From Aquimarina sp. ERC-38 (lineage in GTDB: Bacteria > Bacteroidota > Bacteroidia > Flavobacteriales > Flavobacteriaceae): 64,000 bases of DNA. Positions 5,229-64,000 of the stretch are shown in pieces. How positions within the stretch are numbered: the first letter of the stretch is position 1; the number at the start of each line of letters is the position of its first letter. The stretch is from assembly GCF_026222555.1 (NCBI RefSeq), contig NZ_CP098511.1:2461501-2525500 (forward strand), in the 5' to 3' direction. The notes under the pieces were generated by a model. It was not told the DNA's origin, ran no database searches, and saw only the letters and a program-made list of their open reading frames with translations. Both the position numbers and the translations under genes were made by a program.

Positions 5229-5900
5229 ATTGGTTAGTTAAGAGTTATGAGTTCAGAGTTAAGTGAGTTGTAAGTCCTTAATATAAATTAACTATCCTTG
5301 AATAAAAAGAGAAAAATAGTTGCAATTTTAAAGTGAAAAATCATACTATTATTGATGTTATCTAAGAACTAATAAAATAAAATTGTACTAGCACTAGTGC
5401 CTATTCCCCTTTTGCCTAGTATACTAAAACGAGGAATGAAGTTCCCACAATTTTGAAGTTTAAAGATAATAATATCACCAAAAAACCAATCAGAAATAAA
5501 ATAACAACTATTGCCCATTCACTTTTGCCTAGTAAACTAAAATGAGAAATGAGATTCCCACAATTTTAAAGTTTAGAGATGATAATAGAATAACAACTAT
5601 TGCCTATTTACTTTTGCCTAGTAAACTAAAGCGAGGAATAGGGCTTTTACAGTTTTAAAATTTAGAAAAATTATATCACTAGAAACACAAGTAACAGTAA
5701 AACTTAAACAACAACCAGTGCCTATTCACTTTTGCCTAACTAACTAAAACGAGGATGAGGCTCCCGAAGTCCGAGAAGCCTATCATCTAACCAAATAAAC
5801 CTATAAATCTTAATACTTCATACTCACTACTCAATACTAAAATCTCAATACTTATTACTCAATACTAATATCTCAATACTCAATACTAACAAAACAAAAC
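5229..5900. repeat. Repeat-filled gap between kynU and trmD
   Basis: No convincing gene in about 670 bp. The edges hold simple degenerate repeats: GAGTT/AGTTATGAG runs at about 5230-5275, and the roughly complementary ACTCAATACT runs at about 5811-5890. The centre holds four degenerate tandem copies of a 90-118 bp unit, listed separately. It appears to be decayed non-coding repeat sequence. Confidence 0.8.
5398..5775. repeat. Four degenerate tandem copies of an approximately 110-bp unit
   Basis: Copies begin at 5398, 5512, 5601 and 5719. Each starts with TGCCTATTC-ACTTTTGCCTAG-like sequence, followed by TA(A)ACTAAA-CGAGGAAT and a short stretch like TTCCCACAATTTT. Spacings are 114, 89 and 118 bp. 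The fourth copy departs into CTCCCGAAGTCCGAGAAGCC, which resembles the 28-bp repeat near 48.7 kb. No open frame is preserved across copies. Confidence 0.8.
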
Positions 5901-48501: not shown

Positions 48502-48814
48502 AATTTAAATAAATAGTAAAAAGGCACTAGGCAGAAGTTGACGTTTGTAAAGCCAGAAGTTATTTGTTACTAAGTTATTGGTTACCAAGCTTACTATTTC
48601 AAGGTACCAAGTATTAAGTATCAAGTATTTTTCCTATAATAAATAAAACCCTCAAAACTTAACATGGGCTGAGGCTCTCGAAGCACATATCGTGGGCTGA
48701 GGCTCTCGAAGCCCATATCGCCGGCTGCGGCTTTCAAAGCACATATCATGGGCTGAGGTTCTCGAAGCCCTCGAAGCCCTCGAAGCCCATTAAGTAGGCT
48801 GAGGTACTCGAAGC
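48502..48814. repeat. Gap with short degenerate and 28-bp tandem repeats
   Basis: No gene. The left part has TACCAAGTATTAAGTATCAAG-like degenerate repeats at about 48601-48636, related to the simple repeats flanking the 5.2-5.9 kb gap. The right part is the 28-bp array described separately. Confidence 0.75.
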
Positions 48815-61117: not shown

Positions 61118-62014
61118 ATGTTAATAGAAAAGTTTTTAGAATATCTGACTTTAGAAAAAAAATATGCGCAGCATACGATAACTGCATACAGAGCTGATAT
61201 TACCTCATTCCAACAATTTTGTATAGAAGAGTTTCAAACTTCGGATATATCCAAAGTTAATTATGTAGAAATTCGAAACTGGATTACCAGTTTAATTACT
61301 AAAGATATAAGTAATCGCTCGGTAAATCGAAAGATAACTTCCCTTAAATCCTTTTTTAGATACCTGGTTCAGATCGAACATCTTGACAAATCACCATTAG
61401 ACAAACACAAAGCGCTTAAAACATCTAAAAAAGTACAGATTCCATTTTCTGTAGATGAAGTTCGAACAGTACTTGATAGTTTAGAAACAGATTCTGAGAA
61501 TATATTTAAATCTAAACGAGATCGGCTAATTATCGAATTATTATATACTACTGGTATTAGGCGTACAGAATTAGTAAATATAAAATTAAAAGATGTTGAC
61601 CTTGCGAATTTAAAACTTAAGGTAATTGGTAAACGCAATAAAGAAAGAATTATTCCCTTATTATTAACTATAGAAAAATCCTTTAAAGCGTATCTAAATC
61701 AGCGTAAATTACTGGAAAACAGTAACAATACAGATTTCTTATTTTTAACTGAACGTGGAGTTAAAATTTATGAAATGCTTGTTTATCGTGTTGTAAATTC
61801 ATACTTTAGTTATGCTTCCACAAAATTAAAAAAGAGTCCTCACATGTTGCGACATTCATTTGCAACACACTTGTTGGGCAACGGAGCGGATTTAAATGCA
61901 ATAAAAGAATTACTGGGACATGCTAGTCTGGCATCTACTCAGATATATACACATCAAAGTATAGTAAAGTTGAAGGAAATGCATAAAAATGCACATCCGC
62001 GTAATAATCGCTGA
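61118..62014 (+). CDS. xerC: XerC/D-type tyrosine recombinase
   Basis: A 298-residue site-specific recombinase. The N-terminal SAM-like core-binding domain (about 1-85, FLEYLTLEKKYAQHTITAYRADI) precedes the catalytic domain with Arg in YTTGIRRTELVNI, HxxR in HMLRHSFATHLL, His/Trp position in LLGHASLASTQIYTH, and the nucleophilic Tyr in QIYTH. Size and lack of adjacent phage genes favour a housekeeping Xer recombinase for chromosome dimer resolution. Its position next to hpf and the translation genes is common in Bacteroidota. The start ATG follows the T tract of the rpsU terminator. Confidence 0.92.
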   Translation: MLIEKFLEYLTLEKKYAQHTITAYRADITSFQQFCIEEFQTSDISKVNYVEIRNWITSLITKDISNRSVNRKITSLKSFFRYLVQIEHLDKSPLDKHKALKTSKKVQIPFSVDEVRTVLDSLETDSENIFKSKRDRLIIELLYTTGIRRTELVNIKLKDVDLANLKLKVIGKRNKERIIPLLLTIEKSFKAYLNQRKLLENSNNTDFLFLTERGVKIYEMLVYRVVNSYFSYASTKLKKSPHMLRHSFATHLLGNGADLNAIKELLGHASLASTQIYTHQSIVKLKEMHKNAHPRNNR

Positions 62015-62054
62015 CACCTTCCTTCCAATAGTGTTTAATTTTAAATCTTTTTTT

Positions 62055-62357
62055 ATGAAAGTAAATCTTCAGTCTGTAAACTTTAACGTTGATCAAAAGT
62101 TAGTAGTTTTTACACAACATAAGTTGGATAAGTTAGAAAATCATTTTAGTAAAATTATTTATGCGGATGTATTTTTAAAAGTAATGAATACAAAAGGTAG
62201 AGAAAACAAAATAACAGAGATTTTACTAAGTGTTCCGGGAGATGAATTTATTACAAAGAAGATCAATAAATCCTTTGAAGAAGGTGTAGATGAATGTGTT
62301 ACTTCTTTAGAGCGACAATTGCGAAAAAGAAAGGAAAAATTAAATGCACATGTTTAA
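62055..62357 (+). CDS. hpf: Ribosome hibernation promoting factor, short form
   Basis: A 100-residue HPF/RaiA-family protein that inactivates or stores ribosomes when growth slows. VNLQSVNFNVDQKLVVFTQHKLDKLENHF and the beta strand ADVFLKVMNTKGRENKITEILL are typical. It lacks the C-terminal dimerisation domain of long HPF. I use ATG at 62055; an ATG at 61989 adds 22 residues that overlap the recombinase gene and are not conserved in the family. It lies 40 bp after xerC and probably is co-transcribed. Confidence 0.93.
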   Translation: MKVNLQSVNFNVDQKLVVFTQHKLDKLENHFSKIIYADVFLKVMNTKGRENKITEILLSVPGDEFITKKINKSFEEGVDECVTSLERQLRKRKEKLNAHV

Positions 62358-62377
62358 ATAAAATATTTTAAAATTTA

Positions 62378-62408
62378 TTTGGTTAAAAAAATAAATTATA
62401 TACATTTG
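62378..62408 (+). promoter_or_regulatory. Promoter of the tRNA-tuf operon
   Basis: TTTG at 62378-62381, exactly 19 bp, then TACATTTG at 62401-62408. This is the best match to the flavobacterial sigma-A consensus in the window. The expected start of transcription falls inside the hpf terminator hairpin. Confidence 0.85.
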
Positions 62409-62410
62409 CA

Positions 62411-62436
62411 GTCCGTTAGAAATAGCGGACTTTTTT
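62411..62436 (+). terminator. hpf terminator overlapping the tRNA operon start
   Basis: GTCCGTTAGAAATAGCGGAC (62411-62430) folds into a GTCCG/CGGAC stem, extended by T-G, T-A and A-T pairs around GAAA, and is followed by six Ts. It begins 2 bp after the -7 box of the tRNA promoter. Confidence 0.85.
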
Positions 62437-62455
62437 GTTCTTAAACATAATAAAA

Positions 62456-62529
62456 GCCGATGTAGCTCAGCTGGCTAGAGCAGCTGATTTGTAATCAGCA
62501 GGTCGTGGGTTCGAGTCCCTCCATCGGCT
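62456..62529 (+). tRNA. tRNA-Thr (TGT)
   Basis: Acceptor GCCGATG/CATCGGC, anticodon loop TTTGTAA with anticodon TGT, T-loop TTCGAGT. One T-T mismatch lies in the T stem. CCA is not encoded. First tRNA of the operon. Confidence 0.95.
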
Positions 62530-62778
62530 CTTGATTTTGATAATCGTAAAGGATGTATGAGTAATATATTATTTGTACAGTTAGGGGCGAGAAACTTATC
62601 CCAAAAAAGATAAAGAGAGTTCTTCCATCGGTTATTAACTGAAAGTAAAGGTACAGTTCTGATATTTGTTTCTGAAGTTGAAAATGATTTTTAATTTTTG
62701 ATTGAATAAGATATATTTTTGTACTTTTGCACAGCTTTAAAAAAATGTATCGTAATTATTTTAAAGTTGTTTGAAATT
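62530..62778. repeat. Spacer with a decayed copy of the tRNA-Thr 3' end and a second promoter
   Basis: The segment 62617-62636 matches the tRNA-Thr 3' end plus flank (62513-62532) at 16 of 20 positions. A GGGGCGAGAA block lies at 62584-62593. A promoter for tRNA-Tyr follows. No gene. Confidence 0.75.
62697..62729 (+). promoter_or_regulatory. Second promoter, before tRNA-Tyr
   Basis: TTTG at 62697-62700, 21 bp, TACTTTTG at 62722-62729. It lies downstream of the inserted repeat and could restore expression of the distal tRNAs and tuf. Confidence 0.7.
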
Positions 62779-62861
62779 GGGGAGATACTCAAGCGGCCAA
62801 CGAGGACAGACTGTAACTCTGTTGTCTTTCGACTTCGCAGGTTCGAATCCTGCTCTCCCCA
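62779..62861 (+). tRNA. tRNA-Tyr (GTA)
   Basis: Class II tRNA with a long variable arm. Acceptor GGGGAGA/TCTCCCC, anticodon GTA in CTGTAACT, T-loop TTCGAAT. CCA is not encoded. Confidence 0.95.
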
Positions 62862-62912
62862 CGAATTTGAAATAATGAATACCTTTAATTTCTGTAGATA
62901 GAAATTATAAAT

Positions 62913-62985
62913 GCGGGAGTAGCTCAGTTGGTAGAGCGTCAGCCTTCCAAGCTGAATGTCGCCGGTTCGAACCCGGTCTCCCGCT
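62913..62985 (+). tRNA. tRNA-Gly (TCC)
   Basis: Acceptor GCGGGAG/CTCCCGC, anticodon TCC in CTTCCAA, T-loop TTCGAAC. CCA is not encoded. Its last 16 nt are repeated twice downstream. Confidence 0.95.
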
Positions 62986-63211
62986 CAAAAGTTCATTGAT
63001 TGTTGAAATTTATATTTTATATATGTTTTATTAAGAAATGAACAACTTGGGTGAGAAGCCTGTGCCGAACTTGTTGAGGTAAACCCGGTCTCCCGCTCAA
63101 AAGTTCATTGATTGTTAAAATTTACATTTATATGTAGGTTTTATTGAAAAATGAAAAATTGGGGTGAGAAGCCTGTACCGAACTTGTTGAGGTAAACCCG
63201 GTCTCCCGCTC
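62970..63211 (+). repeat. Tandem repeat carrying the tRNA-Gly 3' end (two and a bit units)
   Basis: AACCCGGTCTCCCGCTC occurs at 62970-62986 (end of the functional tRNA), 63082-63098 and 63195-63211, giving periods of 112 and 113 bp. The units share AAAAGTTCATTGATTGTT after the tRNA end and (G)GGGTGAGAAGCCTGT plus CCGAACTTGTTGAGGTAA before the next copy, with scattered differences in the AT-rich middle. The repeated copies lack the rest of a tRNA, so they are not functional tRNA genes. Confidence 0.9.
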
Positions 63212-63329
63212 TGATTAAAATTACAATCTCGATGCTATTTAGGCATTAGGTTTTTAAAAAAGAAGCACATTTGTTTAAAGCATTACTTCAATAAAATGGC
63301 TTTAAATGAATGTTTTAGTACTTTAAAAA

Positions 63330-63401
63330 GCCGGTGTAGCTCAGGGGTAGAGCGTTTCCTTGGTAAGGAAGAGGTCACGAGTTCAAATCTCGTCATTGGC
63401 T
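63330..63401 (+). tRNA. tRNA-Thr (GGT)
   Basis: Acceptor GCCGGTG/CATTGGC with two G-U pairs, anticodon GGT in CTTGGTA, T-loop TTCAAAT. CCA is not encoded. It is the last tRNA before tuf. Confidence 0.94.
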
Positions 63402-63460
63402 CATAAAGTATAGATATAAAGTAAACACTAATATATAACTAAGATTAAATAAAACTAATT

Positions 63461-64000
63461 ATGGCAAAGGAAACTTTTGATCGTTCCAAACCGCACTTAA
63501 ATATTGGTACTATTGGACATGTTGATCACGGTAAAACAACGTTAACCGCAGCAATTACCAAGGTGTTGTCTGATGCGGGTCTTTCTGAAGCAAGAGATTT
63601 CGATACGATCGATAATGCTCCTGAAGAAAAAGAAAGAGGTATCACTATTAACACATCTCACGTAGAGTATCAGACTGAGAACCGTCACTATGCACACGTA
63701 GATTGTCCGGGTCACGCCGATTATGTTAAGAACATGGTAACAGGAGCTGCTCAGATGGATGGAGCAATATTAGTTGTTGCTGCTACTGATGGTCCGATGC
63801 CGCAAACAAGAGAGCATATCCTTTTAGGACGCCAGGTAGGTATTCCAAGAATCGTAGTATTCTTGAATAAAGTAGATATGGTTGATGATGAAGAGCTTTT
63901 AGAATTAGTTGAAATGGAAGTAAGAGATTTACTTTCTTTCTATGAATATGATGGTGATAATGGTCCGGTAATCGCTGGTTCAGCTTTAGGTGCACTTAAT
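63461..64000 (+). CDS. tuf: Elongation factor Tu (5' part, cut by window end)
   Basis: GTPase that delivers aminoacyl-tRNA to the ribosome. 180 codons are visible without interruption. The G1 loop [14 protein letters not shown], the effector region [14 protein letters not shown]3 [12 protein letters not shown] and G4 NKVDMVDD are intact. It lies 59 bp after tRNA-Thr(GGT); no separate promoter is evident in that gap, so it is probably co-transcribed with the tRNAs, the arrangement known from the E. coli thrU-tyrU-glyT-thrT-tufB operon. Confidence 0.97.

Follow-up and report, generated by a model that had tools for sequence, protein, structure and literature searches.

Two tRNA genes in a 64,000-nt stretch of the Aquimarina sp. 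ERC-38 genome, hereafter the window, are followed by short elements that end in a further copy of the host tRNA's own 3′ end. On balance, these units and their relatives probably constitute a family of insertion elements that enter tRNA genes, spare the host by restoring its end and spread by GIY-YIG homing, the window units being relatives that lack an open reading frame (ORF). The analysis shows directly the architecture of the units, their association with tRNA genes, the covariation of element and host, two empty sites of short units, the conserved catalytic residues of the encoded enzymes, and the tracking of the tRNA by protein lineage; cutting in the loop, homing by repair and a driving role of GIY-YIG proteins for the short units are inferred.

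The tRNA block of the window is ordered Thr-Tyr-Gly-Thr according to ARAGORN and precedes a gene that we take to be tuf (EF-Tu). The motif KGGGYGAGAA occurs three times in the window as compared to 0.31 expected, a number reached in 0 of 100 shuffles. A first-pass annotation had placed such blocks at 62584, 63048 and 63161, and they lie at these positions. The tRNA-end copies that it described are also present, each starting 33 bp after the start of its block rather than at the 33, 34 and 34 bp proposed (Table 1). According to TRF, 62970-63211 is a tandem repeat with a period of 113 bp and 2.2 copies, comprising the tRNA-Gly 3′ end, an AT-rich flank, a TGGGTGAGAAG head, a worn palindrome and the tRNA-Gly 3′ end, and so on again. 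A single worn unit follows the first tRNA-Thr, and its displaced tail is worn as well; in relatives, Thr genes carry conserved elements at the same place (L099, L104, L107). Because one Gly copy is a tandem duplicate of the other, the window contains two independent cases, not three. The suggestion of an element of about 110 bp was not borne out: the conserved common core is only ∼35 bp, and the remainder of the 112/113-bp unit is tRNA end and flank.

In Rfam searches of 62000-64000, only tRNA families reached the gathering score. When the window was compared with a phage collection, the matches listed (20 of 777) covered, insofar as annotated, tRNA portions of the query, and one uncultured-phage match among those listed extended past tRNA-Gly. 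Unrelated tandem repeats occur elsewhere in the window, at 5495-5666 and 48557-48788, with periods of 89 and 9-28.

Table 1. Features of the tRNA-Thr and tRNA-Gly loci, in window coordinates.
Feature	Position	Strand	Basis or remark
tRNA-Thr(tgt), intact; host of the worn copy	62456..62530	+	ARAGORN
Worn short element after tRNA-Thr: GGGGCGAGAA head and decayed palindrome	62584..62616	+	
Displaced tRNA-Thr 3′ end, 14/18	62617..62634	+	
tRNA-Gly(tcc), intact host gene	62913..62986	+	ARAGORN
3′ flank after tRNA-Gly, insert-borne; no detectable homology to the G177 empty-site flank	62987..63048	+	score 33, shuffle mean 26, max 41
Short element 1 (Gly): GGGT pairing with ACCC of the tail, GAGAAG, worn palindrome	63049..63080	+	pairing shown for relatives
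Displaced tRNA-Gly 3′ end, copy 1, 17/18	63081..63098	+	
Insert-borne flank of tRNA-Gly, second copy	63099..63161	+	
Short element 2 (Gly)	63162..63193	+	
Displaced tRNA-Gly 3′ end, copy 2, 17/18, native flank behind	63194..63211	+	
Native tRNA-Gly 3′ flank, homologous to the sequence directly after tRNA-Gly in G177	63212..63329	+	score 68, shuffle max 51

The window's own genome was searched as a single contig of 4.43 Mb; for one of its ORFs, the named close relatives are from Aquimarina and Flavobacterium. KGGGYGAGAA yielded 21 matches and the reversed pattern 11. Twelve of the 21 were in arrays at tRNA-Lys, -Gln, -Met, -Thr and -Gly; among the other nine loci, a tRNA occurred at one alone (L012), >700 bp further on. 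The stricter pattern GGGCGAGAAGNTTN had 12 exact matches, all of them directly downstream of tRNAs or inside their arrays (Lys 2, Gln 6, Met 3 and a second Met 1). It had another 12 matches with one mismatch, of which the window Thr match alone adjoined a tRNA, and the reversed-pattern control had 15 matches at ≤1 mismatch. The 3′ end of a tRNA recurred at ≥14/18 within 1400 bp downstream for 12 of 40 tRNAs, as compared to 26 of 1540 other-tRNA controls. Ten such tRNAs remained after removing Glu, where the repeat is a second whole gene, and Leu-taa, where it is, by eye, a decayed whole copy. Displaced ends stood in tandem, five at Gln and six at one Met. Each unit of these arrays contains a local terminator-like flank, then the head, then a palindrome (e.g., CCCTGAG..CGAAGGG) and, last, the local tRNA sequence from the T-loop to the gene end; a different palindrome is present in some units of the Met array.

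The short-unit observation is real and family-wide. A 19-nt core, GGCGAGAAGYTTRYCCYGA, was found in 27 of 299 family genomes, own included, as compared to 0 for the reversed pattern. A same-strand tRNA lay upstream in 28 of the 29 loci examined, which include the own Gln array and two overlapping loci (L103, L127); the exception was L106. Because GGCGAGAAGYTTRYCCYGA fixes the bases before the block, the search was repeated with GAGAAGTTTATCCYG, which occurred in 60 of the 299 genomes (reversed pattern, 2 matches). In 86 of 99 distinct contexts a same-strand tRNA was present <700 bp upstream, in 70 of these at ≤100 bp, in agreement with the earlier proposal that the block lies near tRNAs. The accompanying proposal, that the tail equals the 3′ end of the adjacent tRNA, was likewise upheld, a copy at ≥13/18 being present in 75 of the 86. 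The tail followed the local tRNA at Thr, Gln, Trp, Met, Lys, Ala, Gly, Ile, Asn, His and Leu genes, and started at +29 in 44 of the 70 heads tested. Inspected by eye, four of the 13 matches without such a tRNA (L270, L280, L306, L324) still showed a palindrome and a tail-like end, and the remaining nine showed none. At L106/L270 (G024:C2, ∼483.5 kb), two units have a tRNA-Leu-like tail with no tRNA called nearby, and one of the two appears by eye to lie in the apparent start of a mannose-6-phosphate isomerase gene.

The bases preceding GAGAAG vary with the tRNA: TCGGAG corresponds to the Ala tail CTCCGA, GCAGAC to Ile GTCTGC, GGGT to Gly ACCC and ACTGGAC to GTCCAGT of one Met. Pairing was evaluated in 70 of 75 heads, the other five being excluded for tails not starting with GA; by eye, none of these five has A/T59-T60. 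Watson-Crick pairing occurred at tRNA positions 59, 60, 61 and 62 in 65, 61, 65 and 63 of the 70, respectively, and dropped to 39, 33, 24 and 17 at positions 63, 64, 65 and 66. Consecutive pairs between the pre-block bases and the local tail, with G-T allowed, averaged 4.9 as compared to 2.99 for shuffled tails (largest of 2000 shuffles 3.56, n = 70). Part of this pairing is expected of any T-stem (61-65); the pairs at 59-60 are outside the stem. Because the pre-block bases pair with the local tail, the unit is a displaced T-arm with CGAGAAGTTTA and the palindrome in its loop. The hosts of short units are selective: A/T59-T60 occurred in 0 of 58 host tRNA genes versus 17 of 35 distinct own tRNAs. 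The motif of the phage endonuclease SegB, considered as the cut site of the short elements, was rejected, the host tRNAs being without W59-T60. At L109, L114, L119 and L121, a second palindrome, of the GTGCTGAGC..GTCGAAGTA kind, interrupts displaced tails.

Other units carry an enzyme. At an own tRNA-Met gene (2801930), a unit lacking an ORF is followed by one with an 83-aa GIY-YIG ORF ahead of the displaced end. Relatives of this ORF were present at 20 loci. The 3′ end was displaced behind the ORF in 10, including a tRNA-Ile on an 8.2-kb contig of a Dehalococcoidales MAG, for which mis-binning is possible (L147); at L141, where two ORFs form an array, it was displaced behind the first of them. 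In a mirror form, seen at two of the 20 loci, the 5′ end was displaced ahead of the ORF. Seven loci had no displaced end, four of them without a tRNA call. The own mirror case (G000:C1:552055-552390, L092) consists of a 5′ piece of tRNA-Leu(caa) with a palindrome, a GIY-YIG ORF and the intact tRNA-Leu; L210, from another genus, has nearly the same palindrome and place.

In 60 genomes, at least 114 rows of solo GIY-YIG ORFs were found, with tandem ORFs of one array counted separately and one ORF counted twice (L173 and L214). Among the 114 listed, 24 rows (19 loci) were ≤500 bp from a tRNA, 24 of 24 on the same strand, and 90 were not near a tRNA. A displaced end was present in 18 rows (13 loci), one of them 643 bp from its tRNA. 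Rows first scored as tRNA-distant include arrays at contig ends or relics (L203, L213, L253, L180). At L174, L218 and L214, the ORF is located at the GGAGF/IG motif of an epimerase-like gene; the start of this gene is duplicated and the full gene is restored downstream, the displaced starts having been identified by eye. At ∼1490-1760 of L197, a GIY-YIG ORF seems, by eye, to break a four-helix-bundle protein gene at a VPSN motif, with no restoration. A third own solo GIY-YIG ORF (G000:C1:94147, L093) belongs to the non-tRNA clade described below and lies within an array of other palindromic repeats.

Three unit ORFs matched PF01541 (E = 2.8e-15, 2.9e-19 and 5.3e-17); the window units have no such ORF. 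Across 33 GIY-YIG ORFs, the Tyr of GIY was conserved in 32, and the Tyr of YIG, an Arg and a Glu in all 33; these are the catalytic residues of GIY-YIG enzymes. I-TevI possesses a separate DNA-binding domain. Such a domain is absent from the unit ORFs, in which the catalytic domain takes up nearly all of the ∼80-95 aa. TIGR01453 matched two of the three unit ORFs, far under the cut-off.

The displaced piece of GIY-YIG units usually bears a palindrome, in the anticodon, D or T arm. Its stem had a median of 7 as compared to 4.8 in control windows (n = 31 units; ≥7 in 19), although at single loci up to 90% of control windows had a stem as long (L254, first unit). Most palindromes of GIY-YIG units are in the anticodon or D arm, as compared to the T-loop in short units. 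The head GAGAAGTTTA is not part of the GIY-YIG units examined, and their palindromes differ too. The short units are linked to the GIY-YIG units by their build and by shared arrays, both kinds occurring in one array at L114 and also at L207, where the tail is truncated. They are not linked by co-occurrence: by hand count, short elements were present in 8 of 60 genomes and tRNA-type GIY-YIG units in at least 17, with an overlap of at least 3 versus 2.3 expected.

The lineage of the GIY-YIG protein tracks the tRNA. Counting one ORF per locus, with tRNA labels set by hand, nearest neighbours among the GIY-YIG proteins shared their tRNA in 30 of 37 cases versus 6.5 expected; with the Met clade collapsed, the count was 15 of 24 versus 2.4. 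ORFs with stops or of <65 aa were left out of the GIY-YIG tree, in which L141 was labelled displaced-end for the copy behind its first ORF, and L135, L137 and L144 were labelled near without a tRNA call. A clade of 75 rows (support 100/85) was nearly tRNA-free (73/75), and the other 57 rows contained all 33 labelled displaced-end. A single origin of the tRNA-associated GIY-YIG proteins was rejected: in this tree they form no single clade (13 changes versus 29.8 shuffled; 99 columns, 132 rows, many forks open).

We considered whether the short units might be REP-like palindromes put into the T-loop hairpin by a Y1 (RAYT-type) single-strand transposase, the tRNA surviving only where a duplication accompanied insertion and the GIY-YIG units being separate and convergent. 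The palindrome CCTGAGCGNAGTCGAAGG is dispersed as such a system would have it: it occurs in 28 of 148 genomes of the order, and 0 of 31 occurrences examined of the palindrome alone were within 300 bp of a tRNA. The exception among further listed places was a set of four in G174, which is the tRNA-Trp array of L120. Y1_Tnp itself is encoded in 27 of 60 genomes, own included. However, it was found in 4 of the 8 short-element genomes, about as 27/60 predicts, and was rejected as the driver on this lack of association. Y1 elements make no target duplication, which we therefore counted against an origin of this kind. Overall, we judge it unlikely. A tmRNA reading of the palindrome in L387, L389 and L390 was also discarded, none being found there by ARAGORN or Rfam.

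It is similarly doubtful, and slightly more so, that the units arose by local tandem duplication of the kind seen in the E. coli tyrT repeats, replication slippage or unequal exchange having copied the tRNA end with its flank and a common palindrome having chanced at the break. The units are indeed tandem and nearly identical inside arrays, and copy number varies among Aquimarina genomes at tRNA-Met (three, two and one displaced ends at L128, L129 and L130, respectively), but duplication could account for array growth and not for the first insertion. Nor does it fit with a single head common to 11 tRNA kinds at a largely constant +29, with the covariation of pre-block and tail, or with the non-native flank that follows the intact tRNA in the Gly and Ile pairs.

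This last point rests on two empty sites, at rrn tRNA-Ile and tRNA-Gly, both for short units. In one own rrn operon, tRNA-Ile is followed by TTTATCAATT; in another, 61 extra bases ending in a tRNA-Ile end precede the same TTTATCAATT; in a third, the insert is present too, with a different flank behind. The Gly-Thr spacer is 123 bp in a same-genus genome, G177, versus 343 bp in the window. The sequence after tRNA-Gly in G177 aligned with that after the last displaced end in the window and not beyond the largest shuffled score with that after the intact gene (Table 1). At tRNA-Ile, the sequence after the own displaced end is collinear with the G177 flank. These two were the informative loci of the 10 own loci compared with G177: Lys, Gln, two Met and Trp were too diverged, Leu-caa has no 3′ copy, no counterpart of the third Met (2801930) was present among the loci compared, and Thr could not be used, as a worn copy seems to persist in G177. 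Since the native flank is behind the displaced end at both comparable loci, the sequence that flanks the intact gene downstream arrived with the insert; in both pairs, the native end is displaced downstream and the new end is in the intact gene. The tail had been described as taken from the target tRNA or as restoring it, and restoration fits better. Judged from these alignments, the short units at Gly and Ile appear to have arisen by insertion, not by duplication alone.

Two further possibilities fare worse. It is very unlikely that the units are functional tRNA 3′ trailers, that is, a conserved hairpin RNA for processing or regulation: the head is conserved and compensating bases preserve the stem across 11 tRNA kinds, but the units are missing from the same-genus Gly site, occur in 60 of 299 genomes, exchange palindromes in the Met array and, within 62000-64000, match no Rfam family except tRNA at the gathering score. 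Many integrative islands use the 3′ part of a tRNA gene as attachment site and the duplicated tRNA block here does run from the T-loop to the gene end, but cassettes integrated by a site-specific recombinase at this part are scarcely credible: units of ∼60-400 bp are too small for an integrase gene, no ORF of that size was present in those examined and the ORFs seen are GIY-YIG, the same core occurs at 11 tRNA kinds, and mirror 5′ forms exist.

For the enzyme-bearing units, homing by end restoration is the most likely account because of the build of the units, the end-replacing endonuclease genes of fungal mitochondria and a phage GIY-YIG enzyme that cuts tRNA genes and amplifies them in tandem. 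According to this account, a nuclease would open the tRNA gene in an arm loop, and repair would bring in a unit consisting of a fresh tRNA end and its flank, then the element, then a GC-rich palindrome. In full units, the element would be the solo GIY-YIG endonuclease ORF. The host's own end would come to lie on the far side as a defunct fragment that has the palindrome in its loop and would be expected not to serve as a target any more. The intact copy would stay open to further rounds or to unequal exchange, yielding tandem arrays, and the mirror form would replace the 5′ end. The window units would be short versions that lack the ORF and whose palindrome occupies the loop of the displaced T-arm, and GIY-YIG proteins may drive them. 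Against this account, an intact and presumably cuttable tRNA stays beside the elements, and their self-protection is not explained by it.

More broadly, it is quite possible, though we would stop short of calling it probable, that the units represent a minimal selfish class (a GIY-YIG protein of ∼80 aa plus a palindrome), perhaps cross-phylum in view of the one Dehalococcoidales MAG contig (L147), that colonizes tRNA genes by end restoration, one tRNA per protein lineage, with ORF-less satellites that have ∼35 bp of their own sequence and are directed to T-arms in trans. No description of tRNA-end-restoring elements was found in the open-access literature searched; within that scope, this seems to be a previously undescribed way in which selfish DNA can persist in essential genes. 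The ways known to us are splicing, by introns and inteins, and the replacement protein end of fungal mitochondria. Here, the end-replacement trick would be applied to bacterial tRNA genes, each subfamily being matched to a single tRNA and the satellites spanning a few dozen bases. The enzymes would be a source of natural, very small candidate tRNA-addressed nucleases. The same account would cover the tandem arrays, the pseudo-tRNAs and the rrn-spacer difference of the own genome, the arrays being a record of repeated hits in one gene.

Among known systems, the 178-bp tyrT repeats of E. coli (rtT RNA, RF00391) are arranged in tandem behind a tRNA whose 3′ end is copied in every repeat, and in this they resemble the present units; to our knowledge, they occur at a single locus only. 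No rtT match was obtained at E up to 1 in 62000-64000. REP/RAYT systems combine dispersed palindromes with a RAYT gene. The palindromes of REPs with RAYT transposases are repeats of 20-40 bp in many copies, with a terminal tag of GTAG or CGTC (PMC3733652). The palindrome studied here is dispersed. Unlike the REPs, as far as that account describes them, the unit is bound to tRNA genes and brings a restored gene end with it. Bacterial tRNA genes also contain group I introns that carry homing endonucleases (PMC3984707), which are similar in being a mobile endonuclease in an RNA gene that is harmless to the gene. As presented in that source, however, harm is avoided by self-splicing and not by end restoration, and Rfam found no group I intron in 62000-64000 of the window or in seven loci.

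The closest parallels are two endonuclease systems. SegB, a free-standing GIY-YIG enzyme of T-even phages, cuts inside tRNA genes and drives tandem amplification of tRNA and its own gene, recognizing the motif RAWTSGAAC (PMC13096335). We read the complement, GTTCSAWTY, as T-loop sequence, the terms "T-loop" and "T arm" being absent from PMC13096335. The GIY-YIG enzyme, the tRNA genes and the tandem amplification are common to both systems. By contrast, SegB is phage-borne, that report describes no displaced tRNA ends as far as it bears on this, and the short elements avoid the W59-T60 tRNAs that the SegB motif, as given there, would favour. In fungal mitochondria, mobile ORFs of the LAGLIDADG or GIY-YIG type insert in atp6, atp9, cox2 and nad3 with a replacement C-terminus (PMC3630166). 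As in that system, an endonuclease ORF is located in an essential gene, a replacement end is supplied and the native end persists downstream as a duplicate. Unlike the fungal ORFs, in the form in which that source presents them, the units described here are in bacterial chromosomes, target tRNA genes and an epimerase-like gene, take 3′ and 5′ forms, carry a palindrome in the displaced piece, and occur as ORF-less short forms and tandem arrays.
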